64,000 nucleotides of DNA from Geoglobus ahangari (GTDB taxonomy: Archaea > Halobacteriota > Archaeoglobi > Archaeoglobales > Archaeoglobaceae): assembly GCF_001006045.1 (NCBI RefSeq), contig NZ_CP011267.1, positions 806,001-870,000 of the forward strand, given 5' to 3'. The number at the start of each line of letters is the position of its first letter. The first letter of the stretch is position 1. Of the stretch, positions 5,729-60,642 are shown piece by piece. The notes under the pieces are model-generated. The model saw nothing but the letters and a program-made list of their open reading frames with translations. It did not search any database and was not told where the DNA came from. A program made the translations under genes and the position numbers.

Positions 5729-5750
5729 CACCCACTTTTAACAGGAAATG

Positions 5751-26616: not shown

Positions 26617-27660
26617 TTAACCCTGATGCGACCTCCAGAAGTATAGCTTTTCAGAGAGAAGGACTGAGGCTGCACAGAGGACAGAGCCTATGATGGGGTA
26701 TGCAAGGAACTCAATCGCGGAGAACTGACTTCCTGCAGAAACCCTCGCGACTACTCCAGCCATCATCGACGGAGTGGTGAAGGATGCTGTGACTAAGGAG
26801 ATGGCAATAAGTGAGAACACGAGCTGACTCCTCTCCCTGTCCTTCAGGATCGAGGTAACGGCCACTCCGAGCGACGCGAAGATCATGGAGAACGAGAGGG
26901 AGGGGAGCAGTATGAGCAGGGGGTTGCTGAGCCCGATGTTCACCCAGAGCAGGATCATCCACACGAGCGTTAGCGTGGCCGAGACTGTGAGGCTGACAAC
27001 CACCTTGGCGGAGATGAACTCCGTGAAGGACATAGGCGTGGAGAGCACGACTTCAAGCGTCCTCGTCTCGTGCTCCTCGCTGATCAGGTCAACTACGAGC
27101 CCGCCGGAGATTATGGCGGTCGTGATCACGAGCAGGGGTATGAGGACGGCGTATATGAACCTGAATGTTATTGAAGACCCCTCCTTCACCTCCACCCTCC
27201 TGAAGTCCGGGCTGACGAACCTGAACCCGTCGTCACCCGGAAGCCCGCGGATCTCCCTCATCTTCCGCTGGTAGTCCTTGAGCGTGTCCTTTACCTTCGA
27301 GCTCGCCACTATGCCAGTGATCTCATCCTTTGGCAGGAACACGGTGACGAAGTTCGTTGCAGAGAGGTTCTCGTTTGGCAGGTAAATTATCGCGCCTATC
27401 TCGCCCGCGTAGAAGTCCTTCAGCGCATCGTCGAGGGTCCTGTAATTTTTCCCGTCAGCGACGGTCTTCAGGATGGGGCAGTCTCCGGCGATGCCTATCT
27501 CCACCCCAGAGACCGTCACGAAGTCTGGCTTGTAGAGCACGAGCAGGCCGAAGGTGATTATGGACGAGAAGGAGGCTATGAAGACGAGTATGGCCATCGC
27601 AGACATTATCGTCCTCTCCCTTCCTATCAGCCTGAGATCCTTCAGGATCATTGACCTCAC
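26617..27660 (-). CDS. ABC-2 type transporter permease
   Basis: 347 residues. One N-terminal helix, a large extracytoplasmic domain (about residues 40-180), then five C-terminal helices with the ABC-2 hallmark EEHETRTLEVVLSTPMSFTEFI. This is the NatB/YhaP-like topology. It overlaps the previous permease by 4 bp; with that gene and the divergent ATPase it forms one exporter. Substrate unknown. Confidence 0.85.
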   Translation of the reverse strand: MRSMILKDLRLIGRERTIMSAMAILVFIASFSSIITFGLLVLYKPDFVTVSGVEIGIAGDCPILKTVADGKNYRTLDDALKDFYAGEIGAIIYLPNENLSATNFVTVFLPKDEITGIVASSKVKDTLKDYQRKMREIRGLPGDDGFRFVSPDFRRVEVKEGSSITFRFIYAVLIPLLVITTAIISGGLVVDLISEEHETRTLEVVLSTPMSFTEFISAKVVVSLTVSATLTLVWMILLWVNIGLSNPLLILLPSLSFSMIFASLGVAVTSILKDRERSQLVFSLIAISLVTASFTTPSMMAGVVARVSAGSQFSAIEFLAYPIIGSVLCAASVLLSEKLYFWRSHQG

Positions 27661-29303
27661 AGCATCACCACCGTCCCGTAGTTGTACGCGAAGTGTATGG
27701 CCACCGCAGCGAGGTAGCCGAGCCTCCAGTCTCTCCTCGAAACGATTGCGAAGGTGAGAGAGCTTGTGACGTGGAGGAGGAGCGGGAAGATGAAGAGCTC
27801 TCCAGGCAGGACGATGCTGTAGTCCTTGAAGACGCTCAACAGCAGCCCCTTCTCAGCCACGAAAAACCCGAGGGCAACGGTAATGGCTCTCCTGACACTT
27901 TTCACCGGGTAGATGAGGCTGGACTTCAGGAACTCCTCGATCACAGCAACCCCAAGCATGATCACGGCGTAGGACGTCACGAGAGGCACGGAGAGCCCGA
28001 AGAACAGGAGGAAGAACTCGAGGAAGAGGGCGATGAAGACTGACGCCATGGCCATAACGAAAGCTCTCAGGTCTGTGGACGCACTTTCAGTTAGAGTTTT
28101 CACGAACCTCTCGAGCGGTGATGTGGGGCTGTAGAGGTTCTCTATCTTGAGCGACCTTGCGGTCAAGTAGAATAGTGTGGCGGAGATTGTGGCGAGCGGG
28201 ATGGATGAGAACGCGAGGTCTGTAATGGAAACCTCCTCTCCGGACAGACTCCGGAGCAGGAACGTCACGGGCGAGACATCTGAGAGCGGCAGGCCAGAGA
28301 ACACCGAAGGTAGGACGAGGTAGACCATGACCAGCAGGTTCGTTACGAGAATCAGAAACGTCAGTTCTCTGTAGGATCTGGAGTTCACGGCTATGAATGC
28401 CTGGGCTGTGAAGAGCAGCAGGAGGGGTGAGGCCATGTAGAGGACACCGTTCACTCCGAAGATCAGCGATGGGATGGCCGTAATGAGGAACGCGAGCAGC
28501 AGGTACGGCAGCATCTTCTGGAACAGTATGCCCTCCTGAGTGAGGGGGGTCGAGAGCAGAACCTCCATCCTCCTCATCCTCACGTCCTCTGCGAGGGAGG
28601 AGGAGAAGACCTGCATGACGAAGAACGACGGGATTATGAAGAGGAACGCAACCACCATCTTGGATATGAGGGACGGAGGGGAGAAGCTGTCGGGAGTCGA
28701 GTACTCCGTTTTAACCCTCTTCAGCGTAACCGGACTCTCCTCACCCCCCTGAACGCTCTTTATGACGCTCTCCTCCACCTTTTCCTGAACGTTTTCCTCT
28801 CTCCCTTCCCTCTCCCTGACCTGCTCGCTTATCTGCCTGATCCTCTCCTCGCTCACGGGCTGGGGGGTGAATGAGGGTGCTATCTCCCTCTTAAGATACT
28901 CTGCCCTGATCATCACTGGAAATGCGTACATCCCGTACTTCTCGTACATCCACCTCTCGAACTCTCCCTTTATGTAGTTCTTCATCTCCTCTCCGGCAGC
29001 GCTGGACTTGAGCGTGTCTGTGACGACGATGCTCAGGCCGGTCAGGAAAACGTCTATCTTCCCCTCCCTGAGGAGGTTCAGCCCCTCCTCCTTTTCCACA
29101 ATAACGTGCTGGAAGAGCCTGTTCTCGATCACGTATCTGTCGCTCCCCGACGTGAATATCCCCGCATCTGAGTTGAATCCGTAGCTGAATGAGAGGTAGG
29201 AGATTAACAGGGCGAGAACGGATATTACGGCGAGGAGGAGCTTGAATCCCCGCGTGTACTTCTTCCCGGACTTCCTGAACTCGGCCTTTATCAGCGGAAG
29301 CAC
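27657..29303 (-). CDS. ABC-2 permease fused to PrsW/CPBP-like intramembrane protease domain
   Basis: 548 residues from GTG 29303. N-terminal half: one helix, a large exported domain with a charged coiled-coil stretch, then ABC-2 helices with VRMRRMEVLLSTPLTQEGI. The C-terminal 170 residues are a second helical domain with the metal-protease pattern of PrsW/CPBP families: EEFLK (456-460), FFVAEK (Glu484), His511 in LLLHVTS and His537 in AIHFAYN. Such a domain could cut or sense membrane peptides. GTG 29303 was chosen over TTG 29342 because AATATATT lies 25 bp upstream, matching leaderless starts; the TTG would lie upstream of that TATA box. Confidence 0.75.
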   Translation of the reverse strand: MLPLIKAEFRKSGKKYTRGFKLLLAVISVLALLISYLSFSYGFNSDAGIFTSGSDRYVIENRLFQHVIVEKEEGLNLLREGKIDVFLTGLSIVVTDTLKSSAAGEEMKNYIKGEFERWMYEKYGMYAFPVMIRAEYLKREIAPSFTPQPVSEERIRQISEQVREREGREENVQEKVEESVIKSVQGGEESPVTLKRVKTEYSTPDSFSPPSLISKMVVAFLFIIPSFFVMQVFSSSLAEDVRMRRMEVLLSTPLTQEGILFQKMLPYLLLAFLITAIPSLIFGVNGVLYMASPLLLLFTAQAFIAVNSRSYRELTFLILVTNLLVMVYLVLPSVFSGLPLSDVSPVTFLLRSLSGEEVSITDLAFSSIPLATISATLFYLTARSLKIENLYSPTSPLERFVKTLTESASTDLRAFVMAMASVFIALFLEFFLLFFGLSVPLVTSYAVIMLGVAVIEEFLKSSLIYPVKSVRRAITVALGFFVAEKGLLLSVFKDYSIVLPGELFIFPLLLHVTSSLTFAIVSRRDWRLGYLAAVAIHFAYNYGTVVML

Positions 29304-29324
29304 ACGGAATGTCGGGTAAAGGTT

Positions 29325-29332
29325 AATATATT
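29325..29332. promoter_or_regulatory. Single palindromic TATA box shared by divergent ABC genes
   Basis: AATATATT is a perfect palindrome. Its centre is about 25 bp from the permease GTG (29303, minus) and about 25 bp from the ATPase ATG (29353, plus). No other TATA-like site or Shine-Dalgarno site lies in the 49-bp gap, so one TATA box probably directs two leaderless messages. Confidence 0.65.
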
Positions 29333-29352
29333 GTTTGCCCAAAGCCAGAGCG

Positions 29353-30213
29353 ATGCTTAAGGCTATCGGACTCAGGAAGAGCTACGGCGACTTCGTCGCG
29401 GTTCACGAGATCAGCTTCGAGGTTGAGAGGGGCCATGTTCTCGGGATCATAGGGGAGAACGGGGCGGGGAAGTCCACGACACTGAAGATGCTCACCGGCC
29501 TGCTCGTGCCTGACGCCGGGACTGTTGAGTACGACGGCCAGAACCTCTTCGACAGCCTGAAGGAGGTCAGGAAGAGGATAGGTTACCTCCCCGAATACGA
29601 CGCTCTCTACGACAACCTGAACGCCGCTGAATACCTGAGGGTGTTCGCGGAGATCTATGGTGTGGAGAGGGAAGTTGCCGAGGAGAGGATTGCCCGTCTC
29701 CTCAGCTCCCTCAACCTGCCGGACGACAGGCCGGTTGGTGGGTTCTCGAAGGGAATGAAGAGAAAGCTGTCTATCGCGAGAACCCTCGTCCACGATCCCG
29801 ATTACCTCATCTACGACGAGCCCACAAGCGGCCTCGATCCCTCGACCTCGCTCTTCGTCACGAGGTTCATAAGGGATCTCAGCAGGGAGGGCAAGACTGT
29901 CGTCTTCTCGGCCCACAACATGTATTACGTGGAGGCAGCCTGCGACCTGCTTCTCATAATAAAGGGCGGCAGGGTGCTGTACTTCGGAGAGCTCGAGAAC
30001 CTCAGGGAGGCGATGAAGAGGTACGTGGTGGTTTACGAGGAGAGCGGAGTGGAAAGGGAGCTCGTCACCGACAGCGTTGAGGAGGTTAACAGGGTGATAA
30101 GGGAGGTCGCTGAGGCTGGCGGGAAGGTGATCAGCATCGAGACTCAGGTTCCGAGACTCGAGGAGATGTACTTCGCGCTGACTGAGGGAAAAAGTATTAT
30201 CAAGGAGGAGTGA
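29353..30213 (+). CDS. ABC transporter ATP-binding protein (NatA-like)
   Basis: 286 residues from ATG 29353. Complete ABC ATPase: Walker A GENGAGKSTT, Q-loop YLPEYDALYDN, signature GFSKGMKRKLSIA (SKGM instead of SGGQ, common in this branch), Walker B YLIYDEPTSGLDPS, H-loop FSAHNM. The C-terminal 80 residues form the extra domain typical of drug/Na+ export ATPases. It is divergent from its two permeases and shares their TATA box, which would keep subunit levels matched. Confidence 0.9.
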   Translation: MLKAIGLRKSYGDFVAVHEISFEVERGHVLGIIGENGAGKSTTLKMLTGLLVPDAGTVEYDGQNLFDSLKEVRKRIGYLPEYDALYDNLNAAEYLRVFAEIYGVEREVAEERIARLLSSLNLPDDRPVGGFSKGMKRKLSIARTLVHDPDYLIYDEPTSGLDPSTSLFVTRFIRDLSREGKTVVFSAHNMYYVEAACDLLLIIKGGRVLYFGELENLREAMKRYVVVYEESGVERELVTDSVEEVNRVIREVAEAGGKVISIETQVPRLEEMYFALTEGKSIIKEE

Positions 30214-30223
30214 ACCTTAGTTA

Positions 30224-30394
30224 ATGAGAGAGCTCAGGGGTCTTCACTGCGCGAGGTGCGGTAGCGAGTTCGACCTCATAGTCGTAAAGGCCACAGGCTA
30301 CAGTGGCCCCATGCACCTGCCAAACCTCTTCTGCCCCTTCTGCGGGAGCAGGAGGATCATGAGGAAGAGAGGCCTCTTCTTCGGTGAGTTTTGA
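30224..30394 (+). CDS. Small zinc-ribbon protein, 56 residues
   Basis: Starts at ATG 30224, ten bases after the ABC ATPase stop, and ends TGATG with the DtxR-family start, so it is translationally coupled. Two CxxC knuckles are visible: HCARCGSEFD (Cys9, Cys12) and FCPFCGSRR (Cys37, Cys40), separated by about 24 residues, giving a zinc ribbon. The tail is basic (RIMRKRGLFF). Function unknown; it could be a transcription or RNA-binding factor. Confidence 0.7.
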   Translation: MRELRGLHCARCGSEFDLIVVKATGYSGPMHLPNLFCPFCGSRRIMRKRGLFFGEF

Positions 30395-30966
30395 TGGAGA
30401 GGGTCGAGGAGTATCTGGAAACGATATACGACATCCAGAAGTCCGGAAAGGTGGCGAAGACGAAGGACATAGCCGGGAAGCTGAACGTGAAGCCGTCCAG
30501 CGTTACGGAGATGCTCAACAAGCTCAGCGAGATGGGTTACATAGAGTACCAGCCGTACAGGGGGGCGGTGCTCACAAGGAAGGGGCTCGAGGTGGCTGAA
30601 AGGATAAAGAAGAACTACAAGGTCTTCAAGCGGTTCTTCGAGGACTTTCTGGGTGTTGAGAGCGAGATAGCTGACAGGCTCAGCTGCACACTCGAGCATG
30701 TTGCAGATGAGAGGGTAATCTCGAGGCTCTGCTCGATAATTGCGAGGAACTGCGAGGTGTGCGAGGTCTGCGCGGAGGAGCTGCTGACACTGAGCGAGGC
30801 TGATGATGGGGAGTACGTGGTGTTCGCGTCTCCGAGATCGCTGAAAAAGGCTGGAGTTGAGCCGGAGAAGGAGGTTGAGGTCAGGGATGGAGTTCTGGTC
30901 GTGGACGGGGTGGAGCTTGAGGTTGCGGAGAGCCTGAAGAGGTTCGTCCTCCTCAGGCGTCTGTAG
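30394..30966 (+). CDS. DtxR/MntR-family metal-dependent repressor
   Basis: 190 residues. N-terminal winged helix (VEEYLETIYDIQKSGKVAKT, KPSSVTEMLNKLSEMGYIEY), then the dimerisation/metal domain (ADRLSCTLEHVADERVISRL with Cys, Glu, His ligands) and a short C-terminal beta domain like FeoA/SH3. Cys-rich NCEVCEVCAEE in the linker is unusual and might add a metal site. Family members repress iron or manganese uptake when metal is bound. It follows the zinc-ribbon gene directly and converges on fdhD with a 14-bp overlap. Confidence 0.88.
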   Translation: MERVEEYLETIYDIQKSGKVAKTKDIAGKLNVKPSSVTEMLNKLSEMGYIEYQPYRGAVLTRKGLEVAERIKKNYKVFKRFFEDFLGVESEIADRLSCTLEHVADERVISRLCSIIARNCEVCEVCAEELLTLSEADDGEYVVFASPRSLKKAGVEPEKEVEVRDGVLVVDGVELEVAESLKRFVLLRRL

Positions 30967-31624
30967 CAATCGCCCCGGAATTCACCGCAATACCGCTCGC
31001 GAATGAGATCGCTGAAAGTCCGTACCTCTCGCAGAGCTCTATTGCGGAGTTCAGTATCGCGGCCTTAGACACCACGAGCGGGATGCCCATCCTGATGGCC
31101 TTCTTCGCAATTCCCGCCGTTATTCTGCCGGAAAGCATCAGGAATGATCTGCTGAAGTCCACTCCATCCCTGTAGGCCGCACCTATCGCCTTGTCGACTG
31201 CGTTGTGCCTGCCGACATCGTACCCCTTGGCGATTTTTCCATCAGACACGATAAGGGCTGTGTGGTATGCCCTCGTCCTCCTGTAGTAGTCTGCCTCCAG
31301 CTCGGTCAGGTACTCTCTGACGGAGCTCAGGCTGAACCTGACCTTTGGCTCAAGCTTCTGCAGGGGTTCGTCCACGTAGATGCCAGCACACCCCGAGGAG
31401 TTTATGGAGGTCGAGAACCCCTTGTCAACCATCGCAACCGCCACGTCCCCCTCGACTATAACCTTTGGCTCTGCCGACAGACCCTCGGACAGCAGAAACC
31501 CTGTGACGAGTTCCTCAAGCTGGACGGGTGTGCAGAATATCCTGATGACGTTTCCCCCCAGAATCACCTTGAGCTCCATCTCCTCGCCGATCTCAAGAGG
31601 TCTGTCGATCTCGATGATTTCCAT
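30953..31624 (-). CDS. fdhD: FdhD-like sulfurtransferase for molybdenum enzymes
   Basis: 223 residues. Matches FdhD: VTGFLLSEGL, the AYHTALIVSDGKIAKGYDVGRHNAVDKAIG block, SGRITAGIAKKA, and ISFASGIAVN. FdhD moves sulfur from a cysteine desulfurase to the Mo/W-bis-MGD cofactor of formate dehydrogenase. The bacterial motif has two Cys (CGxCG); here the loop reads NSSGCAGIY with only one (Cys79). No formate dehydrogenase gene is in the window. Confidence 0.85.
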   Translation of the reverse strand: MEIIEIDRPLEIGEEMELKVILGGNVIRIFCTPVQLEELVTGFLLSEGLSAEPKVIVEGDVAVAMVDKGFSTSINSSGCAGIYVDEPLQKLEPKVRFSLSSVREYLTELEADYYRRTRAYHTALIVSDGKIAKGYDVGRHNAVDKAIGAAYRDGVDFSRSFLMLSGRITAGIAKKAIRMGIPLVVSKAAILNSAIELCERYGLSAISFASGIAVNSGAIATDA

Positions 31625-31662
31625 TGGAAAGGGTTTAATGCCATGGAGGTATAAGGGTTGCG

Positions 31663-32514
31663 ATGAGGATTGTCAATCTGAGGCTCGATGAGAGGATAGT
31701 CGAGAGGATAGATGAGATCTCCTCGAAGCTCCTCATATCGAGGAGCGAGGTGATCAGGCAGGCACTCACCCTTTACATCTCATTAATCGAGAACATAGGG
31801 TTTTACTTCAAGCCCTCCGTTTTCTCACCCAAGCTCGACATATACGAGGAGAGGAATGGGATATACGTGGACTTGGGCAACAACCTCTCCCTGTCCGTTT
31901 TCAACATCGTTTACGGAGGGATCGGGGAGAAGGAGGGGGACTGGCTGAAAGCTGGTGTTGAGCGGGTTGCGGAGATAATGGCCTATCAGATTGAGGTGGA
32001 GAGCATCTGCAGGTTCATCCAGCCCCTCGCGGTGGAGCTCTCAACGGGGAACGAGCTGGACTACGGCATGCGGTTCTACCGCAGGTTCCGCGAGCTCTTC
32101 AGCGGGAGGGTCGTTTTCGCGGACAGCGAGGACGTCGCCAAGACTGATCAGAGCTTCTTCAGCGCCGTGGTTGTTGGAGTGAGAGACATGAGGGTGAAGA
32201 ACATTCCCAAGAGGGGGGAGAAGATCTTTCTCTACGGCAGGGTGATGAGGGGGGAGGAGCTGCTGAGAGACAACCCGCCGGACTTGTCGGTGTTCAGGAG
32301 GCTGGCCGAGATGGTGAAGGAGGGGAAAGCGAGTTCAATAATGCCCGTCAAGGGAGATGGAATCAGAAACGCGTGCATATACGCCGCCTCAATCGCTGGA
32401 GGGAGGCTCAGGATGAGGGCGGAGATTGACGGTGGATGTCCCGCAACGGCCGTAATTGTGAGCGCCGAGGAGATGCCCTTAGAGGGCGGCGTCGAGGTTG
32501 GAGAGATACTCTGA
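31663..32514 (+). CDS. Ribbon-helix-helix protein with large C-terminal domain
   Basis: 283 residues. Residues 1-45 are a clear RHH DNA-binding unit (VNLRLDERIVERIDEIS, ISRSEVIRQAL). The remaining 235 residues are a separate alpha/beta domain; GKASSIMPVKGDGIRNACIYAAS and CPATAVIVSAEE vaguely recall the C-terminal half of AIR-synthase/SelD/HypE proteins, but I am not sure. If so, it would be a ligand-sensing regulator. It lies divergent from fdhD by 38 bp. It may control fdhD; the sequence does not show this. Its end overlaps endonuclease V by 36 bp, convergent. Confidence 0.55.
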   Translation: MRIVNLRLDERIVERIDEISSKLLISRSEVIRQALTLYISLIENIGFYFKPSVFSPKLDIYEERNGIYVDLGNNLSLSVFNIVYGGIGEKEGDWLKAGVERVAEIMAYQIEVESICRFIQPLAVELSTGNELDYGMRFYRRFRELFSGRVVFADSEDVAKTDQSFFSAVVVGVRDMRVKNIPKRGEKIFLYGRVMRGEELLRDNPPDLSVFRRLAEMVKEGKASSIMPVKGDGIRNACIYAASIAGGRLRMRAEIDGGCPATAVIVSAEEMPLEGGVEVGEIL

Positions 32515-43678: not shown

Positions 43679-44933
43679 ACTTCTCCTTTATCTTCTCCAC
43701 CTTGTCTGTCACTTTTTCCTCGTCAATGGTGAGCACAACCCTGTCCTCCATCACGATCTCTCCGTTGACAATCAGGTGCTGCACCTCCTCTCCGCTGGCC
43801 GAGTACACGAGGCTGTAGAGGGGGTTGTAGCTCGGGTAGAACTGGGGCGACTTTGACAGGATCGCAAGGTCTGCGAGGTATCCTTCCTCAATCCTCCCAC
43901 CCTCGATTCCATACGCAGCATATCCGTTGGCGGTGGCCATATCCATAACATCCCTCGCCTTGACCGCATCGGCCCTCATGTATTTCACCTTCTGGAGAAG
44001 TGAGGCGAACTTCATCTCCTGAAAGAAGTTGAAGCTGTTGTTGCTCGCCACGCCATCGCTCCCGAGCGCCACGTTGATTCCGCGCTCGAGCATGTCCCTC
44101 ACCCGTGCGATTCCCGAGGAGAGCTTCAGGTTGCTTACCGGGTTGTGGACGACGCTCACACCCCTCCTCCTCAGTATCTCTATCTCCTCGTCATCCAGCC
44201 ACACTCCGTGGGCTATGACCACGTTGCTGTCCAGAAATCCAATCCTGTCGAGAAGCCTGACCGGAGTTGTCCCGTACCTGCTCTTTATCTCCTCAACCTC
44301 CCATTGTGTTTCGGAGACGTGAATGTGAATTCTCGTCCCTATCTTATCTGCCCTCTCCTTAACTGTTCTGAGAAAGTCTGGAGTGCAGGTGTACGGGGCG
44401 TGCGGGCCGTAAATTGCTGTGATTCTTCCATCGAAGGAGTTGTTCCAGTCCCTGATGAACTTCTCCCCGATTTCGAGCTCTCTTCTCGCCTTCTCCTCGT
44501 CTCCCCTATCCGCCATTCCGTAGCAGAGGACAGCTCTGACTCCGCTCTCTCCAACAGCCTTGGCAACCTCGTCCATGAAGATGTACAGGTCGCTGAAGCC
44601 TGCTATTCCACTCCTTATCATCTCAACGATCGCGAGCATTGTTCCCCAGTAAATGTCGCTGGCAGTCATCTTCCTCTCAAGCCTCCAGACGTTTCTCAGC
44701 CACTCGCTGAGCTCAAGGTCTTCAGCAGCACCCCTCAGCAGGGTCATGGCAGCATGAGTGTGGGCGTTGAAGAATGCGGGGATGACGATCATGTTTTTCC
44801 CAGTGAAGGTAATCTTTCCCTTCAGCTCCTGCTTTGAGACCTTGGATATCCTCTTTCCGTCGATACCAATTGATGCTCTTGTAAATTCACCGTTTATGTA
44901 GCAGAGCGCATCGTTTATTGCGATGGAGTGCAT
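43668..44933 (-). CDS. mtaD: 5-methylthioadenosine/S-adenosylhomocysteine deaminase
   Basis: 421 residues, amidohydrolase barrel. Metal ligands: HTHAAMTLLRG, HIHVSETQWEVEE, AHGVWLDDEEI, and GSDGVASNNSF. Belongs to the ATZ/TRZ-like group in which archaeal members deaminate SAH, MTA and adenosine, salvaging SAM by-products. Last gene of the GC-rich core before the AT-rich island. Confidence 0.87.
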   Translation of the reverse strand: MHSIAINDALCYINGEFTRASIGIDGKRISKVSKQELKGKITFTGKNMIVIPAFFNAHTHAAMTLLRGAAEDLELSEWLRNVWRLERKMTASDIYWGTMLAIVEMIRSGIAGFSDLYIFMDEVAKAVGESGVRAVLCYGMADRGDEEKARRELEIGEKFIRDWNNSFDGRITAIYGPHAPYTCTPDFLRTVKERADKIGTRIHIHVSETQWEVEEIKSRYGTTPVRLLDRIGFLDSNVVIAHGVWLDDEEIEILRRRGVSVVHNPVSNLKLSSGIARVRDMLERGINVALGSDGVASNNSFNFFQEMKFASLLQKVKYMRADAVKARDVMDMATANGYAAYGIEGGRIEEGYLADLAILSKSPQFYPSYNPLYSLVYSASGEEVQHLIVNGEIVMEDRVVLTIDEEKVTDKVEKIKEKFTS

Positions 44934-44977
44934 GGGGTGTGTTCTTACGGGGGGTTGATTAAGGTTTGGGATAGTAG

Positions 44978-45538
44978 CTAGGAGGTGTTGTATACACTTT
45001 TCAATTTTTCCTCAGATCTGAAAAAATTGATTACGACACACTGATTGAACATCTTGACAGAAAGCGACCGCGATACAACAATTTTAACAGATACGTTGCG
45101 AAATTCGCTCTGAAAAGCTGGGAGAAGTACAGAGACCCGTACCACGTTTTCGAAGAAGTGTCAAAGATGCTTAGAGAGCTCATGGAATTTGACAGAATCA
45201 TCAATTTCATAGCCAAGAAAATGGATGAACTCGACATTGTAATTGACTCCGAAGTGTACAAAATAAACAGAAGCGACGACAGAGACTTAGAGCTCTTCGA
45301 AAAAATCTTGGATGCGCTAAAATCCAGCAGTATCAGGTTCAGGGACAACTTTGATCAAGAGATATTTATTGAGACTGCAGTTTACAGTGCTAAAACCTAG
45401 GAACCAATCGTTTTTGTTACAGACGATAGAGAATTCCTCAGAAAAAGTAACAGAGCCATAGAGGCCATAGATTTCCTTGATCTCGAAAATTTGAGATTTT
45501 GTTTGTTAGATGAGGTCCTGCAGGTTCTGTTAAAATGA
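44978..45538 (+). pseudogene. Broken PIN-domain gene with in-frame amber stop
   Basis: One frame stays open from just after a TAG at 44975 to TGA 45536-45538, interrupted only by TAG at 45398-45400. Before the stop: KSWEKYRDPYHVFEEVSKML, DRIINFIAKKMDELD, then DQEIFIETAVYSAKT. After it, without a frame change: EPIVFVTDDREFLRKS and LENLRFCLLDEVLQVLL. VFVTDDREFL is the usual last acidic motif of PIN domains, so the two halves belong to one gene. No normal start with the N-terminal PIN Asp is seen either. A decayed toxin is most likely. Confidence 0.6.
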
Positions 45539-45568
45539 AATGATGAAATGTTGTACTCTATTTGAACC

Positions 45569-45590
45569 CCATTACACTTGGTTGTAATGG
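45569..45590. repeat. 8-bp inverted repeat
   Basis: CCATTACA (45569-45576) and TGTAATGG (45583-45590) are perfect inverse copies around a six-base loop, in the gap between the PIN pseudogene and a minus-strand membrane protein gene. It may be a terminator hairpin or an operator. Confidence 0.4.
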
Positions 45591-45644
45591 TTAAGATGAG
45601 AAATGGGTGTAAGGTGAAAGTAGAATGGTGAATTTAACGTGAGC

Positions 45645-45962
45645 CTACTGAAAAGCTCTAATTATGCCGTAAATTAATTTTGCAATAAACAATACTGGAA
45701 TCATATAGATTGCAATTTGGAGGAGTACCAAGCCAATTTTGGTAGACAGGTCCCCTATAAAAGTAGAAATTCCCACAAGAGCTGATCCCAACAGGTTAAA
45801 TCCAACCGCTTGTAAAAATATACCAATTACGAGAGAGGTAATTAAAATTCCACTTGGCAAAATGAGGGAGAGTGGCCAATCCACAATTTTCTCAGGTGCG
45901 TCTATCAGAGTTTCTATTAAATTCTGCAAAGTTCCAAGCAGGGATTTAAATAGACTATCCAT
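45645..45962 (-). CDS. Small membrane protein, 105 residues, unknown
   Basis: An amphipathic N-terminus (LFKSLLGTLQNLIETLIDAP) is followed by two or three hydrophobic segments (LILPSGILITSLVIGIFLQA, KIGLVLLQIAIYMIPVLFIA). No family recognised. AT-rich codon use like the rest of the island. It lies just downstream of the nuclease lipoprotein gene on the same strand with a 69-bp gap, so it could be co-transcribed. Confidence 0.5.
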   Translation of the reverse strand: MDSLFKSLLGTLQNLIETLIDAPEKIVDWPLSLILPSGILITSLVIGIFLQAVGFNLLGSALVGISTFIGDLSTKIGLVLLQIAIYMIPVLFIAKLIYGIIRAFQ

Positions 45963-46031
45963 TGCAATATATATTACAAAAGTAATATTTAAAATTTATC
46001 CCCAAATTTCATTCGCAGACGTCAAACCACC

Positions 46032-47024
46032 TTACCACTCATAGTTATCCACCAGCTCCCCTTCGCTGTTGTAGAGGTAGGCAGTATCGTGATCGTTGTT
46101 CCATATAGCCCTTCCAGAATTCCAGAAGATGTCCGTTGAGTTGTCCAAACCCTTGCCGGTGTGCAGAATCACCTGCTCTCCGGGATCGAGAACAACGTCA
46201 GGAAAGATGTAATACTTGCCAGATTCATCCTGTATTTTCCAGCCGTAAAGCGATACGGAAGTGCTGCCGGTATTGGCTATAACCACATACTCGTCGTTCA
46301 GGCACTCTCTGTCATCCACCTCACCACATGCATCGTAATTGACTGAGAGAATCTCGACCACGGGTGGAGAGTAGTTCCACAATCCGATTTTATTCTGCTT
46401 AGCTTCTTCTTCAAGCTGCCTGTAAAGATCTCTCTTCGAGAACTCCGCTTCATAGTAACATCTTGCATAGCCTTCCTTTATCATCACAGCCCCGAAGTCC
46501 ACACCATTAACGTAAACATAGGCCAGGAGTCTTCCATAAACGTCCCTGGGTTCTGCTTTATCGTCTGTCTGGACAACAACCTGCTTTCCGTCGAGCAACT
46601 CTTTCGCCCTTTCTTCAGCCTTTCTGCCCCAGACTGCGAGATACTGCGTGTCAGCTATGCCATCATATTCGCCTTTCCTGTTTCTGCTTGCGTCAGTTTC
46701 AGGGCAGTCTATTCCAAGGATTCTGATTCTTTCTTTTGTTCCATCCTGAAAGAGAACATCAATCGTATCGCCATCAACAACGTAAACAACTCTTGCGGTA
46801 TAGTTTTTGCCGGGTAGAATTGAGAGTTTTTCAGCAGTTGGTGTAGGAATGGGTGTCTGTTCCGGGGATGGAGGTTGTGATGGAGTAGAGAGCGGAGTGG
46901 GTGATGTGGTAGTAGGAGTTGGAGTTGCAGTGAGTTGGGGGCTTTCCTCGGTTTGAGAGCACCCGAGAAGTGTCAGGGCGAGTAATGTCAAGAATGTGAT
47001 CAGTAGTTTCCCGTAGAAACCCAT
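46032..47024 (-). CDS. Exported thermonuclease (SNase) with lamin-tail domain, lipoprotein
   Basis: 330 residues. Signal peptide and lipobox at the start (LLALTLLGC, cleavage before Cys22), then a Pro/Thr/Ser-rich spacer (about residues 27-65). Staphylococcal-nuclease domain: VVDGDTIDVLFQDG, IRILGIDCPETD, GRLLAYVYVNG and GLWNYSPP. Residues 228-330 are a lamin-tail domain (VEILSVNYDACGEV, EYVVIANTGSTSVSLYGWKI, VILHTGKGLDN). A membrane-anchored nuclease outside the cell; uptake of DNA for food, or defence against incoming DNA, are both possible. Confidence 0.87.
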   Translation of the reverse strand: MGFYGKLLITFLTLLALTLLGCSQTEESPQLTATPTPTTTSPTPLSTPSQPPSPEQTPIPTPTAEKLSILPGKNYTARVVYVVDGDTIDVLFQDGTKERIRILGIDCPETDASRNRKGEYDGIADTQYLAVWGRKAEERAKELLDGKQVVVQTDDKAEPRDVYGRLLAYVYVNGVDFGAVMIKEGYARCYYEAEFSKRDLYRQLEEEAKQNKIGLWNYSPPVVEILSVNYDACGEVDDRECLNDEYVVIANTGSTSVSLYGWKIQDESGKYYIFPDVVLDPGEQVILHTGKGLDNSTDIFWNSGRAIWNNDHDTAYLYNSEGELVDNYEW

Positions 47025-47054
47025 GTTGAATATTTTCAGCTGACAGCTTTAAGA

Positions 47055-47822
47055 TTACTGATTCTTGAGCTGTGCAATAGAAAAGGTATCATTATCCTGA
47101 AGTATAACTCCACTCAAGTGCCCCCATATGTTAACAACATTGTCACCTGATACAATACTGATTGGGAACATTAATGTAAGGAAAAACAGGTAAAACATTG
47201 CCAGAACGTAGGCAACTACTATTCTCTTAATTTTTTCTTTTTCTCTTGCATGTCTCCAAGCGACCATTGTTAAAGGTAAGGCAGTTATGAATAGCAGTAT
47301 AAGAATTACAGCTATTGTATTCACATACATGGAAACAAAAAAGTATAGTGTTGCGAAAATCAGGAAAAGATAAGACAATATGTTGTCTTTTTTATCGAAC
47401 GAGATTAACAGAGCCACAGCATATCCAAACATGCCAATCGCTGCACCTGTAATGCCTGAGAAGCCGTATATGTTCCCACTCCCACCGAAACTGGAAAGTA
47501 TATACATTGAATACGCAGAACTGAATATTGGTACAACGATTAGAATTGCCAACAAAGAGTATCTGAAAATTTTATCATGATCAAGATGGTTGTAGAGTAG
47601 CATTGAGACAAATCCGAATAATGCATAATAAAACAGATTCCTGAGCAAATGTCCCGGCTCGTAGTGAACAAAATTCGTGGTGTAGAGGGTTAGAATGGAG
47701 TAGTCTTCAGTGTTGAGTGTCAGGGCTTTTTTAATTTCTGGGTCCAGATAAAAGATTATTAGACACAAAAAAGCTGGAATCAGTAAAATAAAAAGACCAT
47801 CTACGTATTTTTTATAGTTCAT
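47055..47822 (-). CDS. Rhomboid-family intramembrane serine protease
   Basis: 255 residues, about six to seven helices. Rhomboid hallmarks: FVHYEPGHLLRNLFYY, catalytic Ser122 in the GFSG motif (YGFSGITGAAIG), and catalytic His235 in NIWGHLSGVI. Divergent from typical rhomboids elsewhere. Cuts membrane proteins at or near the membrane surface. Adjacent on the same strand to the exported nuclease (30 bp), a conceivable substrate to be released from the membrane. Confidence 0.82.
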   Translation of the reverse strand: MNYKKYVDGLFILLIPAFLCLIIFYLDPEIKKALTLNTEDYSILTLYTTNFVHYEPGHLLRNLFYYALFGFVSMLLYNHLDHDKIFRYSLLAILIVVPIFSSAYSMYILSSFGGSGNIYGFSGITGAAIGMFGYAVALLISFDKKDNILSYLFLIFATLYFFVSMYVNTIAVILILLFITALPLTMVAWRHAREKEKIKRIVVAYVLAMFYLFFLTLMFPISIVSGDNVVNIWGHLSGVILQDNDTFSIAQLKNQ

Positions 47823-47825
47823 AAC

Positions 47826-48239
47826 TCATTCTCTCAAATACTGCCCTCCAACCGGCACAAACCTCTTTGGCTTTACTGGTTTATCGTATTTCCTAATATC
47901 TTCAAGCTCAATAGCCATCCATAGCTTCCTCTTCTTCTTTCCATGCCCCCATCTCTCCTGAGATTTGATGTACTCTCTCAGCTCCTCTTTAGTTAAGAAA
48001 ATTCTATCTCCAAAAGTCTCAAAGAACTTCATCGGATCTTCCTGCAGGAGGATCATTTTGATCTTCGCTTCTCCAACAAACCCAGTATCCTCGTGAGACT
48101 GATAGAATACGAACTTCATTCCCGGCTTTAGCTGCTTCCAGACTGTAGCGGGCTTAACGAAAACGTCCTTGCCTTCCTTGAAGAAGCGATCCATGAACCG
48201 CTTTGGGATTGGGTAGGTTACGCCTACAATTTCACCCAT
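47826..48239 (-). CDS. DUF365 family protein, PUA/EVE-like
   Basis: 137 residues from ATG 48239, which shares a base with the hicB stop. EIVGVTYPIPKRFMDRFF, QLKPGMKFVFYQSHEDTGFVG and RIFLTKEELREYI fit DUF365, an archaeal family I take to have a PUA-like barrel, as in EVE and ASCH domains, which bind nucleic acids or modified bases. It is the last gene of the EVE-hicA-hicB-DUF365 operon. Confidence 0.72.
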   Translation of the reverse strand: MGEIVGVTYPIPKRFMDRFFKEGKDVFVKPATVWKQLKPGMKFVFYQSHEDTGFVGEAKIKMILLQEDPMKFFETFGDRIFLTKEELREYIKSQERWGHGKKKRKLWMAIELEDIRKYDKPVKPKRFVPVGGQYLRE

Positions 48240-48487
48240 CAAACCACCTTGGCTTTGATATTCTCCATGACCTCCTTGAGCAACTCCTTCCCCATCGGCT
48301 TGGGTATCTCTCTGCCTTCTTTCTTCGCAGCTTCGATCCACAGCTCAATGGCAGTTTTAATCTCCTTCAAAGCCTTTTCTTCAGTTTCACCGAAGGCAGA
48401 GCAGCCCGGCAGCTCGGGAACTACAGCGATATAGCCCTCATCCTCCTCGCTGTAGAATATCTCAATCGTGTACTTGTGCATGATCAC
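48239..48487 (-). CDS. HicB-family antitoxin
   Basis: 82 residues. HicB partial RNase H fold: YTIEIFYSEEDEGYIAVVPE then LPGCSAFGETEEKALKEIKT, and a helical tail. Lacks a separate DNA-binding domain at the end, so autoregulation may depend on another protein. Overlaps hicA by 4 bp; order toxin then antitoxin is usual for hicAB. Confidence 0.88.
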   Translation of the reverse strand: MIMHKYTIEIFYSEEDEGYIAVVPELPGCSAFGETEEKALKEIKTAIELWIEAAKKEGREIPKPMGKELLKEVMENIKAKVV

Positions 48488-48735
48488 TCCTCCTCAAGTA
48501 GATTATACTTCTCAATCACTTTTAAAAATTGCCTTACTTGGTAAGGTTTTGCCTTGCCTTTTACATTCTGAAAATTCAGAATCTCTCTAACTCCTTCTCT
48601 GACGTACACTCTGTGGCTGCCTTTGCCACCCCTGAATTTGAAGCCGAAGAGTTCAGCAGCCTTGCAAAGCTCCTCAAATCTGACATTCTTTGGGTTGTTC
48701 TTCAGTTTCTCGTAAATCTCCTTTTTCTTCGTCAT
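48484..48735 (-). CDS. HicA-family mRNA interferase toxin
   Basis: 83 residues. HicA dsRNA-binding-like fold with the key His in [15 protein letters not shown] longer N-terminal helix ([20 protein letters not shown]) than typical. Expected to cleave mRNA. The start overlaps the EVE gene by 4 bp, so an EVE protein is made from the same message, which is unusual for hicAB. Confidence 0.86.
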
Positions 48736-49172
48736 GCCGAACTCATGATTAGCTTGTAATCCTCCTCAGGAATCTCTCTCATCGCCTTGCCCATCAAATG
48801 CCCGCTCCACTTCTTCTTGTTGGTGATGAACTTCAGCTTGGGGATCAGTGGTTTGAATTCCACAGGTTTATCGAAGATCTTAACAGGCTTAAGTTTGATT
48901 CTCAGAGGGAAAGTTTCGTTTCCCATGCCTTTTGGAGATTTGAAAATCTTGCTTGAATCCCTGAAAACTTCGGAAAATGCCTCATAAACTGCAACAATTC
49001 TCGGTTCTTTGATTTTGTCTTTGATTCTTTCCTGTTTGAGATAGATGAGGAGTTTGTCTCCGGGTTTTACCTTTGCGATGGTGTTTCTGTGCCTCTCCGG
49101 CACTCCCCAGATGTTTTTCTCTTTTATAACCTTCCAGTTCTCTTCGTTGGTTATGCAGAGCCAGTAGGCCAT
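48732..49172 (-). CDS. EVE-domain protein
   Basis: 146 residues from ATG 49172. EVE pattern: [25 protein letters not shown] at the front, [14 protein letters not shown], and [16 protein letters not shown] domains belong to the PUA-like fold and bind modified cytosines or modified RNA; they are often part of modification-dependent restriction or toxin systems. TTATAATAA at 49195-49203 is about 27 bp upstream; the open frame before ATG 49172 lacks conserved residues. Confidence 0.83.
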
Positions 49173-49439
49173 GTTGTATTTTTGTTTTGAGCTTTTATAA
49201 TAATTGCTCTTTCCAAAAGACAAAAAGTGTGCTACATCCATATAAATGTCCGGACAACACTACTTCCGGAGACATTTGGGAGATAATCTTTCAGTTTAGA
49301 GTACTTTGACGTTCCAAAACACCCATCTTGATATTTCTAATGGGATTTCTTTTCTATGGGTTTAAGTTTGTTTATCTTTTTATCTGTACACCCTCATCTA
49401 CCGTCCCGTTACCAAAAAATCGAAAATACTGTTTCCTGT
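49173..49439. other. 267-bp gap without a recognisable gene
   Basis: AT-rich gap between the nuclease-like gene of the defence operon and the EVE operon. It holds the EVE TATA element (49195-49203) and a pair of TCCGGA sequences about 49250-49275. No open frame of note and no RNA fold recognised by eye. Confidence 0.4.
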
Positions 49440-51341
49440 TTATGCGTCACAATCCAATTTAGTGTCAGCATTCTGCGATTCAAATATTTGTTTAACCAAC
49501 TTTACCCTATCTTTTGAGAAGAAACTAGAGTTTTCAATTTTCTTGTTAAATCCGTCTATTACTTTTATGCCCCGCTCCTCGAAAAATTTCGTCCTCTCAG
49601 CAGGTAATGGAAAATACGTTACAAGGATTGGGATGATAGAGCATTCAGGATATTCGCTTCTTAAGACCAATATTTTTCTACTTATTTGATTTAATGTCTT
49701 GATTATTTCATCTTTATGAACCGCTACCTTACATTCATAAAGATATATTTTATTGCCTTTTTTGGAAAAAACATCTATTTCCTCCTTATCTGCTATGTAG
49801 TTGTGTTTTACTTCCTCAAAATATTCTTGCTCCTGAACCCATTTGTACACCATTAGTTCGAAAAGAAGCCCCTTTACATTTTCCTGAAATTTTCTCCTTT
49901 CATTTTCTATTTGGTTTATATCGATGATAACACTTTTACCAAATGGACTTTCGGTAATAACTCTATCAAAAACGGATGATACAGACCTATCCTTAAGATA
50001 TTCTTTAAATAGGTTTATCTCAATTTCTACCTCCTCGACTTCAATAAGATCCTTTTCTCTGAATATATCGATATATCTCTTCGCTTGCCTGTATAGGTTT
50101 CCTCCAAATCCAGAATAGTCAGTAGCGCTATCAAAGAAAATTAGCCATCCGGAATAATCTGTAATTCCGATCGAACCATATGCTGGAATCAAAATCCCAT
50201 AACTATAACTGTTCATATTCCCTCCTTCAGGATGTCTAAAAATCCTGATGAGGACTTTGTCACGACCTAAGTTAACCAATCCAACCAAAACAGATAAAAA
50301 AGCTGGAACGCCGCTAAAAATCGATCCTGTAGAACTTAACACTTCTACACCATACCATAAAAGGTTATAATCTAACCACTTTTTAATGTCATCTACAGTT
50401 TTCCTTCTAAAGTAATCCGGCTCTCGCAAATTTTCTTTAGACAGTAAAGGTTTAAGAATTGACTTGCCAATAGCCTCAATTACTAGCAATGGCTCAAGAC
50501 CTAAAGCTAAACCAAGGCCATTCTCTAAAGGTCCTATAATTTCTTTACGTATTTTGTCAAAAAACGAATCCAAAATAAGCCATTCTTTATTCAATTTCCC
50601 AATGTCGCCTTCATGGCTTTCAAAATTTGTATTGGTGATTTTGTGAAGGTCTTTTATGCAAGATTTTCTGAAATCATTTTCTCCAAGCAGTTTAGACCAA
50701 AGATATTGAAGTGTAAGAACATACCCTTTAAAGACCAATTGGAGGTATTTAGGCGATAAGTTTGTCCCAATTGTTGCAGGCGAAATATAACCAAGTGGGA
50801 CCCCACTCCGTACATCATTTAAATATACAAAAGCATAAAATTTTGTTGCAATATTTAGGGCTAAATCCTTGTCTATTCCAATAGTTGGTTTAGCAAACCT
50901 GTATAGTTCCTCAAATAGTCTAATTAATGGATCTAAACTCGTAATGGATACTCTAATTTCATCCCAATTTTTAGCTTTCCTTAAACGCCTGGATAACAAC
51001 CATATGTTCTTGATGATCACAGTTTTTTCAGAAGTATTCGGTATATCTTCAATTGGTATTCCTTTAAATCTGGCTCTGAAAAAAATGAAATCTTCCTCAA
51101 GCCCCAAAGAATAGTCCAATTCTATTAGGTTAATTATAAGTCTAATTGTAGACACAACAAAGAATTTGTACCCTTCAGCAAGGATTCTGTCCATATTTTT
51201 GTTGTGGTGAGTTTTTAACCAACTTTCGAATTCAGATGTGTTAGTGGCTATCCTTAAAATGTTTAAAGCTGCCAATATATCATCAATAGGGTTCAACGAG
51301 CTTTTTTCAAGAGAATTATCACTTTCAGCTTCTCCCTTCAA
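49440..51341 (-). CDS. Large protein with C-terminal PD-(D/E)XK nuclease domain
   Basis: 633 residues, TTG start at 51341. The first 470 residues are helix-rich and not recognised; a hydrophobic patch near VPAFLSVLVGLVNL may touch a membrane or a partner. The last 150 residues fit a PD-(D/E)XK restriction-type nuclease: Glu495 in GLLFELMVYKWVQE, Asp523 in EEIDVF, and Glu536/Lys538 in YLYECKVAVH. It is the last gene of the helicase-methyltransferase-ATPase operon and is the likely DNA-cutting effector. AT-rich codon use, as in the whole island. Confidence 0.6.
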   Translation of the reverse strand: MKGEAESDNSLEKSSLNPIDDILAALNILRIATNTSEFESWLKTHHNKNMDRILAEGYKFFVVSTIRLIINLIELDYSLGLEEDFIFFRARFKGIPIEDIPNTSEKTVIIKNIWLLSRRLRKAKNWDEIRVSITSLDPLIRLFEELYRFAKPTIGIDKDLALNIATKFYAFVYLNDVRSGVPLGYISPATIGTNLSPKYLQLVFKGYVLTLQYLWSKLLGENDFRKSCIKDLHKITNTNFESHEGDIGKLNKEWLILDSFFDKIRKEIIGPLENGLGLALGLEPLLVIEAIGKSILKPLLSKENLREPDYFRRKTVDDIKKWLDYNLLWYGVEVLSSTGSIFSGVPAFLSVLVGLVNLGRDKVLIRIFRHPEGGNMNSYSYGILIPAYGSIGITDYSGWLIFFDSATDYSGFGGNLYRQAKRYIDIFREKDLIEVEEVEIEINLFKEYLKDRSVSSVFDRVITESPFGKSVIIDINQIENERRKFQENVKGLLFELMVYKWVQEQEYFEEVKHNYIADKEEIDVFSKKGNKIYLYECKVAVHKDEIIKTLNQISRKILVLRSEYPECSIIPILVTYFPLPAERTKFFEERGIKVIDGFNKKIENSSFFSKDRVKLVKQIFESQNADTKLDCDA

Positions 51342-51427
51342 TCACCCTCACCCACTCATGCTGTTTAATTTTCTCAATCAGCCCCATTATTTCCTCATCA
51401 GCCCTAATCTCCCCGACAACTTCTTTT
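51325..51427 (-). other. Coding-like remnant after the AAA gene, possible frameshifted C-terminus
   Basis: In the frame one base off from the AAA ATPase gene, the sequence reads PIKEVVGEIRADEEIMGL then IEKIKQHEWVRVIEGRS before a TGA at 51325-51327. It looks like real protein (charged amphipathic helix). The AAA gene ends at 51426 next to a run of six A on the coding strand (51441-51446); adding one A would join the two frames and lengthen the ATPase by about 35 residues. Confidence 0.4.
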
Positions 51428-52832
51428 ATCGGTTTAATTCTTTTTTAATTTTTATTCCCAACTTTTCAACAACACCTATAGCAAATTCTACCTCTCGTAG
51501 ATATTTTGGTCTTGGATCGTAATGCACAGATGGATTTAACAAAATGGATCGATAAGTTTCTACTCTCTTAATCAGTGTTTTCGCCCGATTCAATTGTGCT
51601 TTTACTTCATTCCAGATGTCACTTATATTTGATGATTCATAAGGAACTTTTAATTTTTTCTTTTTTGCAAAATTTTTTACAATTCTTTCGAATTCAAGCC
51701 TTACATAGAGCGCTGCTGCTGGAATATCTCCTTTATTAAGATGTTGTTTTGCTTTATCTAAATAATCTTGCTGTTCAACACCGACGATAAATGGAAGATC
51801 TGTGCTATCTGTTTTTCTTACAACGAGCCTTAAAAATTCCCATTTGCTCCCGTCTAAATACTGTTTCATTAGATTAAACCAATTTTCATCAAAAGTAGTT
51901 ATAACAATCTGATACTCGTCTTCAAAATCTTCTCGAAGTATGTCCAGCAATGGGATTCTTAGATTCATGTCCAATCCTATGACAACATCGTCCAGCAAGA
52001 GCATCTTGTATTTAGAAACATTAAATCTCTTGTAGTATGCCAAAAAGAGCCCCAACGATATCGCATTCAGTCTGCCTTCATTTAGGTACGTCAAAATATC
52101 GCTTACATCCTTACTATTCCATTTAACGTTGAAATTGAGCTTGCCAAGTTCTTCAATTGAGCATTCAATTTCTATATTGTCTCCTGTTAATCTTCGAACA
52201 TAATTATTCCATATTTCATGTATTTCAGCGAAAATTTTGTTGATTTCACTCTTAATTGATTCTTCTTTGTCTAATATTCTCTTTTTGGCTCTGGGACTTT
52301 TTTCTTTTAACTCTTCCAGTTCTTGAAGTTCTTCAATTAATGTTTTTTCACCTCTTGGCGGGATAAGGTAGTGGGCCATTACATTCTTAACAAAAAGTTC
52401 ATAAAAGTCTTCAGGAGTGCTCAAATCGTAGATTTTCATAAGTTGTCTATAACTCAAAATGCTTGTAGATCTCGAAAGCGCATCAAGAAAAGTCTTTTCA
52501 TCAGAATCATAGCTATCCGGATCTGTAACAATAACTGATCTTTCATTTCCTTTATCGTCAACCTTCTTTTTAAGTTTAGTCTTTAACGATATGGTTTTTC
52601 CGTCAGTTGTTTCAATAGAGATTTCTACTGGCTCTTTAGTGAACACATTTTCATAACTTTCCAATTCTATTTCGCTTGATGCCGAGTCAAAAGGGAGTTT
52701 TAACGCTTCTACCAGCGAAGTCTTCCCGGAACCATTTTCGCCATAAACGACAAGATTCTTCCCTCTGAGATTGATCTCTATTTCATTTGCAAATCCTTTG
52801 AAGTTATTTAACCTCAAAGTCTTTATTTTCAT
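51426..52832 (-). CDS. Rad50/RecF-like AAA ATPase of the defence operon
   Basis: 468 residues. Walker A VVYGENGSGKTSL (29-41), preceded by the typical IKTLRLNNFKGFANEIEINL. A short coiled-coil insert (KSPRAKKRILDKEESI) takes the place of the long arms of Rad50. Then the ABC-like half: YLNEGRLNAISLGLFLAYYKR signature and Walker B KMLLLDDVVIGLD. The C-terminal 100 residues (ALYVRLEFERIVKNF, LLNPSVHYD) are shared in style with other defence-associated ATPases. GGAGGGTAAAG precedes the ATG. Two bases from the methyltransferase stop: same operon. Confidence 0.75.
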   Translation of the reverse strand: MKIKTLRLNNFKGFANEIEINLRGKNLVVYGENGSGKTSLVEALKLPFDSASSEIELESYENVFTKEPVEISIETTDGKTISLKTKLKKKVDDKGNERSVIVTDPDSYDSDEKTFLDALSRSTSILSYRQLMKIYDLSTPEDFYELFVKNVMAHYLIPPRGEKTLIEELQELEELKEKSPRAKKRILDKEESIKSEINKIFAEIHEIWNNYVRRLTGDNIEIECSIEELGKLNFNVKWNSKDVSDILTYLNEGRLNAISLGLFLAYYKRFNVSKYKMLLLDDVVIGLDMNLRIPLLDILREDFEDEYQIVITTFDENWFNLMKQYLDGSKWEFLRLVVRKTDSTDLPFIVGVEQQDYLDKAKQHLNKGDIPAAALYVRLEFERIVKNFAKKKKLKVPYESSNISDIWNEVKAQLNRAKTLIKRVETYRSILLNPSVHYDPRPKYLREVEFAIGVVEKLGIKIKKELNR

Positions 52833-52834
52833 CT

Positions 52835-59987: not shown

Positions 59988-60010
59988 CCAATCAATAGTT
60001 GTTTCGGCCC

Positions 60011-60019
60011 TATTAAAAG
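60011..60019 (-). promoter_or_regulatory. Probable TATA element of the defence operon
   Basis: On the minus strand CTTTTAATA lies about 28 bp before the helicase ATG at 59987, with no strong Shine-Dalgarno site between. Confidence 0.45.
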
Positions 60020-60258
60020 CTTTTCAAAAATTAATTTCATGAGATATGATAAAACTAAATTCAAAATAAATTGTTGTTTTAAATGACACATTATCGTAAT
60101 GCTATATCCAAATACTAAGATGGGTGAGCATGATTAATCTGGTAGAGGATTGAATAAAGCCTTAACAGAAGAAAACGAATCTGCAAATCTGAAAAAACAG
60201 AATACAGAACAAACAGAATGCAAAAGAGTTAAACAAGCGAGGACATCATGATCTTAAC

Positions 60259-60447
60259 TCACTTCCCTGTTTCATCAGGCACCGCACTGGCATCCTCTCT
60301 CGCATTGTCCTCGCTGTAGTCAATCTGCAGAGGTTCGTAAGCATCCTTCAGCTCTTCAAATCTGAGCACGTCGAACATCTGGAGTTCTTCAGCTGTGAAG
60401 CAGTGACAGTATAACTCAACGTATTGATCATCTTGGCTAAACTGCGG
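60259..60447 (-). pseudogene. C-terminal gene fragment in the gap before tRNA-Gln
   Basis: The 558-bp gap 59988-60545 has one coding-like stretch on the minus strand, open between stops at 60448-60450 and 60259-60261. It reads VELYCHCFTAEELQMFDVLR, then FEELKDAYEPLQIDYSEDNA and a short acidic tail. An ATG at 60378 would give 39 residues. It looks like the tail of a larger lost gene at the island edge. I do not recognise the family. The rest of the gap is AT-rich with no other support. Confidence 0.4.
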
Positions 60448-60545
60448 TCACGATCTAGCTAAATCTTTGGGGAAAAGTTAGAAACATTAAAAGCTCTTAA
60501 TTTCTGTAAAGGAGAGATCTGGGGGTTATAGATGTTAAAAAACCA

Positions 60546-60618
60546 TAGCCCCGCGGGGATTCGAACCCCGGTCCCGGGCTCCAAAGGCCCGGATGATTGG
60601 CCGCTACACCACGGGGCT
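60546..60618 (-). tRNA. tRNA-Gln (anticodon TTG)
   Basis: Read on the minus strand, acceptor stem AGCCCCG pairs with CGGGGCU and is followed by A; anticodon stem CCGGGC/GCCCGG encloses CUUUGGA, anticodon UUG, reading CAA. T arm CGGGG-UUCGAAU-CCCCG is regular. CCA is not encoded; no intron. Its 3' end points toward the AT-rich island, the side on which integrative elements usually insert. Confidence 0.95.
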
Positions 60619-60642
60619 CCGGTAAAAAATTGGTTGGGTGTT

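Follow-up and report, generated by a model that had tools for sequence, protein, structure and literature searches.

Genes and features at the locus

The window analysed here, a 64,000-nucleotide stretch of the Geoglobus ahangari genome, contains a divergently oriented pair of genes encoding an ABC transporter ATPase and a large membrane protein, with a short gap between their start codons. The features of the locus are listed in Table 1. A gene of the DtxR type adjoins the ATPase gene not only in this genome but also in G001–G004, and is situated approximately 180–195 bp downstream of the ATPase here and there. In G005 and G006 it is found on a separate contig from the permease, whose gene is also distant from it in G010 and G016. 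The genome was found to contain one TBP gene and one TFB gene, each with two repeat matches in one open frame.

When the 548-aa permease itself was compared with Pfam, no match was obtained at an E value of 0.1 or better. Among 11 aligned members of the permease family, ABC2_membrane_3 was matched by seven and the PrsW protease, weakly, by two. All 11 sequences share E456, E457, K460, H511 and H537, and N541 is nearly invariant. We take the C-terminal region that carries the invariant E, K and H residues to resemble a PrsW/CPBP intramembrane protease.

The G+C content of the window is mostly approximately 0.55. An island of low G+C content (0.35–0.45) was observed over 44–60 kb (region 44000–61000), extending to a tRNA-Gln gene at 60546–60618. 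Four defence-like genes are situated there; the best PADLOC matches were to the C3a139 HKD+Snf2 helicase, a type IIG restriction-methyltransferase and the mad3 ATPase, and the fourth gene encodes a protein with a PDDEXK-like stretch.

Table 1. Features of the ATPase–permease locus and of two further divergent pairs in the window
Feature	Position	Strand	Remarks
Second ABC-2 permease	26617–27651	−	Downstream of the first
Large membrane protein, 548 aa	27657–29303	−	GTG start; ABC-2 permease-like by relatives; possible PrsW-like C-terminus
Gap between start codons	29304–29352		49 bp
Predicted BRE+TATA, ATPase direction	29316–29331	+	GTAAAGGTTAATATAT; TATA seat 29323–29330; start at −37 from ATG; 6.7 bits
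Predicted BRE+TATA, permease direction	29324–29339	−	GGCAAACAATATATTA; TATA seat 29325–29332; start at −36 from GTG; 7.0 bits
Palindrome, shared TATA core	29325–29332		AATATATT; exactly the permease-direction TATA seat
ABC transporter ATPase	29353–30213	+	ATG start; best NCBIfam match drrA, below its cut-off
Small zinc-ribbon-like ORF	30224–30394	+	Follows the ATPase; no Pfam match reaches its cut-off
DtxR/MntR-family iron-dependent repressor	30394–30966	+	Same gene run as the ATPase
Further divergent pair	5731/5782		Gap 50 bp; one two-way BRE/TATA block, 12.2/9.9 bits
Further divergent pair	40097/40146		Gap 48 bp; one two-way BRE/TATA block, 8.6/8.0 bits

Start codons and position of the palindrome

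Start codons were assigned with a gene caller that uses codon-pair usage (coding statistics) and start-codon type, without promoter information. Both 29303 and 29353 were picked by this coding-only caller, and the same starts were obtained under three other start-codon weightings. Two longer alternatives were rejected. A permease start at TTG 29342, for which the caller instead picks 29303, would place the TATA inside the permease gene, and an ATPase start at TTG 29335, for which it picks 29353, lies only 3 bp past the TATA. Both are also disfavoured by the gaps in the genus (48, 49 and 52 bp), which do not differ by multiples of three.

The palindrome AATATATT is centred at 29328.5; the ATPase ATG (29353, plus strand) lies 24.5 bp from this centre and the permease GTG (29303, minus strand) 25.5 bp from it. 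The original prediction, of a perfect palindrome approximately 25 bp from both start codons, is thus borne out, with starts that are robust to weighting. The first bases of the two start codons are 50 bp apart, and a distance of approximately 49–50 bp between transcription starts would be expected if both mRNAs were leaderless. The prediction that the gap contains neither a second TATA nor a Shine–Dalgarno site also held. None of eight Shine–Dalgarno words was found in the 25 nt preceding the ATPase or the permease start, and a scan of both strands from 29150 to 29560 (410 bp) revealed no second BRE/TATA-like motif of at least 4 bits other than overlapping registers of the same block, so that a single TATA element is present between the two starts. 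The base preceding the ATPase ATG is G, which counts against a two-way promoter here; the usual −1/+1 initiator has a pyrimidine, according to the initiator rule as described for Pyrococcus furiosus (PMC6640164).

Scores of the BRE–TATA motif in both directions

From 166 upstream regions of the same genome, short divergent gaps being excluded, we fitted a motif of 16 positions; approximately 59 % of the regions were estimated to carry it. The fitted motif, RRAAA..TTTATAT, has 56 % of its position weight at starts 38–36 nt upstream of the start codon, which fits leaderless transcripts, and in the sampled genome the A+T content upstream of start codons is highest at −28 to −24. The site under study agrees with the arrangement expected of a leaderless promoter, namely a TATA centred approximately 26 bp before the start codon and no Shine–Dalgarno sequence.

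It is apparent that the motif is of ordinary strength in both directions. The scores of 6.7 bits (plus, ATPase) and 7.0 bits (minus, permease) lie at the 51st and 54th percentiles of the 166 training regions, near the median, and only 0.7 and 0.5 %, respectively, of 4000 coding-sequence controls scored as high in one direction. The TATA seats for the two directions are offset by 2 bp: TTAATATA at 29323–29330 for the ATPase, and AATATATT at 29332–29325 on the minus strand for the permease. The ATPase seat ends 23 bp, and the permease seat 22 bp, short of its start codon; for primary starts of P. furiosus, the final conserved A of the TATA is reported to be 23 bp upstream (PMC6640164). A BRE is situated on each side of the TATA, GTAAAGG on the plus strand and GGCAAAC on the minus strand.

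The bare 8-mer AATATATT was rejected as the defining feature of the site. It occurs at 20 sites in 1.77 Mb, compared with 22 for the same letters reversed, and is therefore not enriched; only one of nine copies in the sampled 464 kb is situated at leaderless-promoter distance from a start. Moreover, it is absent from G001 and G002, in which the core is TTTAATAAATT and both directions score as well. What exceeds chance is not the bare 8-mer but the full BRE–TATA–BRE block, correctly spaced from each of the two starts. The emphasis originally placed on the palindrome needs correction for these reasons: the seats are 2 bp out of register, a BRE is present on each side, and the core differs in G001 and G002.

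Conservation of the block among relatives

A match to the permease was found in 33 of the 60 genomes searched, G. ahangari included. The ATPase was recognizable in 25 of 30 retrieved loci (the exceptions being L014, L017, L018, L019 and L024), and the two genes were divergent in all 25. In all seven genomes of the genus that were searched, again including G. ahangari, the divergent pair is retained with a gap of 48–52 bp, the GTG start of the permease is kept, and one central BRE–TATA–BRE block is present. Scores in these seven genomes ranged from 6.7 to 8.0 bits on the plus strand and from 6.6 to 8.0 bits on the minus strand, with the minus motif starting between −35 and −37 relative to the permease GTG.

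The seven sequences were aligned by anchoring them on the TATA core with a regular expression, so the identity of nine of the ten core columns follows by construction. Outside the core, invariance in all seven is confined to AAA in the plus BRE and two T's in the minus-BRE TTT; the remaining non-core columns have pairwise identities of 0.14–0.67. The seven genomes amount to approximately four independent lineages, since L003 and L006, and likewise L002, L004 and L005, are near copies in the gap.

Outside the genus, the estimated gap ranges from −16 to 167 bp, which indicates that the exact arrangement is not kept family-wide. Eight of the 18 ATPase-bearing loci there were scored, giving 4.1–10.3 bits on the plus strand in loci whose permease starts are unsettled; the highest-scoring minus motif no more than 10 bp from the same centre reached 1.8–10.4 bits, the lowest value (1.8 bits, in L027) being under the threshold used elsewhere. 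The sequence, the geometry of the motifs and their conservation are direct observations. Judged by sequence comparison, the predicted promoter block is real and is conserved within the genus.

Divergent pairs with similar gaps

The sample from the same genome comprised 464 kb, made up of twenty stretches and the window, and contained 70 divergent pairs. The gap was 48–52 bp in seven of these (five, six and seven under three other start weightings), and all seven pairs had above-threshold motifs in each direction, their centres no more than 6 bp apart; the transporter pair and the pairs at 5731/5782 and 40097/40146 are the three of the seven that fall in the window. One other divergent pair in the window, at 31624–31663 (an FdhD-like gene and its neighbour), is only 38 bp apart, too close for the standard shared-TATA geometry if neither mRNA has a leader.

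Five genomes of the family were scanned with the G. ahangari motif at a threshold of 2.57 bits, the value exceeded by 5 % of coding controls. Overlapping two-way motifs were found in 0/4 pairs at 40–43 bp, 1/6 at 44–47 bp, 16/20 at 48–52 bp, 5/8 at 53–56 bp and 1/5 at 57–60 bp. Pooled over the five genomes, 20 of 318 pairs had gaps of 48–52 bp (15, 18 and 17 under three other start-codon weightings), with 7/70 in G000, 4/64 in G001, 5/57 in G016, 0/61 in G010 and 4/66 in G028. In G056 and G041, two genomes of the same phylum whose A+T profile lacks a distinct peak near −26, 0 of 122 pairs had that spacing.

A survey of other divergent pairs for the same spacing had been proposed with the original prediction, and its outcome was mixed. 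The peak is visible in the pooled data, but it is not significant in the G. ahangari genome alone or without it: the all-position scan for a peak at 48–52 bp gave P of approximately 0.011 pooled, 0.16 for the G. ahangari genome alone and 0.32 without it. When gaps of 44–55 bp were compared with flanking gaps (32–43 and 56–67 bp), P was 0.0007 pooled and 0.016 without the G. ahangari genome, and 0.31 for G010 and G028, which entered the comparison once the hypothesis already existed. The expectation that divergent gaps generally peak sharply at approximately 49 bp is only partly borne out: P is 0.16 in the G. ahangari genome, and none of the 61 pairs of G010 has such a gap.

Two-way sites of at least 6.5 bits were also counted irrespective of gene pairs. 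The sample had 46 in 44 kb of non-coding DNA (1.05 per kb) and 14 in coding DNA (0.033 per kb); seven of these 60 sites are flanked on each side by a start at leaderless distance. Together with the other pairs at 48–52 bp that have overlapping motifs, these sites indicate that the transporter pair belongs to a class and is not unique. A reverse motif above the 5 % threshold was present within 6 bp at 114 of 237 tandem (one-way) promoters in the five genomes. TATA boxes are in any case nearly symmetric, and a two-way motif is no proof of two-way mRNA production.

Interpretation of the shared block

The best explanation for the arrangement, and in our judgement a probable one, is that a single TATA box directs transcription both ways, yielding two leaderless mRNAs. 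The original proposal of a single TATA usable both ways is supported by the near-equal scores, by conservation in the genus and by the precedent in P. furiosus, although the palindrome as such is not the key to it. The block would represent a compact bidirectional archaeal core promoter, a single TATA with flanking BREs on which TBP and TFB would assemble in either orientation. Each orientation would bring RNA polymerase to the start codon of one gene, with transcription starting there or within 1–2 bases. One predicted leaderless mRNA would encode the ATPase, the zinc-ribbon ORF and the DtxR-type regulator, and the other the two membrane subunits. As the centre of the TATA is approximately 25 bp from each start, the geometry accounts for a gap of approximately 49 bp. 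We infer the use of TBP and TFB, the start points, the extents of the operons and the relative output, and also that the two sides would take turns at one site, since two initiation complexes should be unable to occupy the TATA together. Near-equal motif scores do not prove equal output of the ATPase and permease sides, which had been suggested originally.

The TATA might instead serve mainly one gene, most likely the ATPase, the reverse motif being a by-product of symmetry and the permease being transcribed from elsewhere or weakly. The reverse motifs at 114 of the 237 tandem promoters are comparable to that seen here, and the P. furiosus authors, as their paper describes it, take the second transcripts to be non-functional antisense RNA (PMC6640164). 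It is the minus score, however, that is the higher at this locus (7.0 versus 6.7 bits); it remains at 6.6–8.0 bits in the seven genomes of the genus, in which the motif also keeps its start position (−35 to −37) relative to the permease start codon, and no other minus-strand motif of at least 4 bits was found within the range scanned (29150–29560). Use for one gene is accordingly considered quite unlikely. Coincidence, that is, an A+T-rich spot in a short intergenic gap, is very improbable. The bare 8-mer is no commoner than its reversed letters and divergent gaps of similar length occur elsewhere in the genome, but coincidence is largely contradicted by the retention of the BRE and TATA columns in the seven genomes, and the frequency of two-way sites (1.05 per kb of non-coding against 0.033 per kb of coding DNA) also speaks against it.

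The symmetric block could also be chiefly, or additionally, an operator at which a dimeric regulator, such as the DtxR-family protein (30394–30966), would repress both directions. The proximity of a DtxR-type gene to the ATPase, approximately 180–195 bp downstream here and in G001–G004, is in keeping with this, as is the form of the gap, an imperfect inverted repeat (GGGtAAA...TTTgCCC). The outer arms of that repeat vary between species, however, and only BRE and TATA columns are fully conserved within the genus; nothing fully conserved beyond these that might be a regulator site, and no separate conserved palindrome, was seen in the seven aligned genomes. An operator is, on this evidence, unlikely, and joint control of both sides by the DtxR-type regulator is a possible, candidate role. 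A literature search on the Archaeoglobus MDR1 regulator found nothing.

Comparison with known bidirectional promoters

Bidirectional transcription from one TATA has been reported in P. furiosus, where, of 49 head-to-tail regions showing very strong antisense signal, 38 carried BRE–TATA–BRE, and where PF1918 in vitro gave almost similar amounts of transcript from starts 49 bp apart (PMC6640164, 2019). The Geoglobus site is similar in its central TATA, in the BRE on each side, in predicted starts approximately 49–50 bp apart, and in that TBP is taken to bind either way (PMC6640164). The differences are also clear. The motif analysis described for P. furiosus concerned head-to-tail neighbours only, a similar head-to-head signal having been seen that was inseparable; the second transcript there is antisense and assumed to be non-functional (PMC6640164), whereas here both products are predicted to be leaderless mRNAs for the subunits of one transporter. 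The Geoglobus block is also conserved in its genus. The P. furiosus evidence (PMC6640164) is experimental, that for Geoglobus from sequence alone.

The prokaryotic symmetry promoters (Warman et al. 2021, Nat Microbiol) are likewise described as having a pseudo-symmetric core that engages polymerase in two ways, but those of bacteria are built on a −10 element, and their starts are mostly separated by 18 bp (PMC10268837, PMC12825309), in contrast to the TATA/BRE and approximately 49 bp seen here. Among five bidirectional promoters tested in Escherichia coli, no competition is reported at basal level, but one direction can be repressed when the opposite one is strongly activated (PMC12825309). 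Compared with ordinary leaderless promoters of the same genome, the site has the same motif at the same distance from the start codon, but is apparently used in two directions and for two coding genes. The locus was unreported among the matches listed in searches of the literature on bidirectional or shared-TATA archaeal promoters, on Archaeoglobus and Geoglobus transcriptomes and among papers citing the symmetry-promoter work.

The locus adds a conserved example to an archaeal promoter type already known from P. furiosus. It is a clean case in that both products of two-way transcription would be useful mRNAs, rather than an mRNA and an antisense by-product. A wider design for the family, in which a shared TATA would fix many divergent gaps at approximately 49 bp and couple the expression of partner genes, one complex at a time, is conceivable but is put forward tentatively, as somewhat less probable than not. 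The prediction that follows is of divergent leaderless pairs sharing a TATA with starts approximately 49 bp apart, and it could aid the annotation of start codons and promoters.
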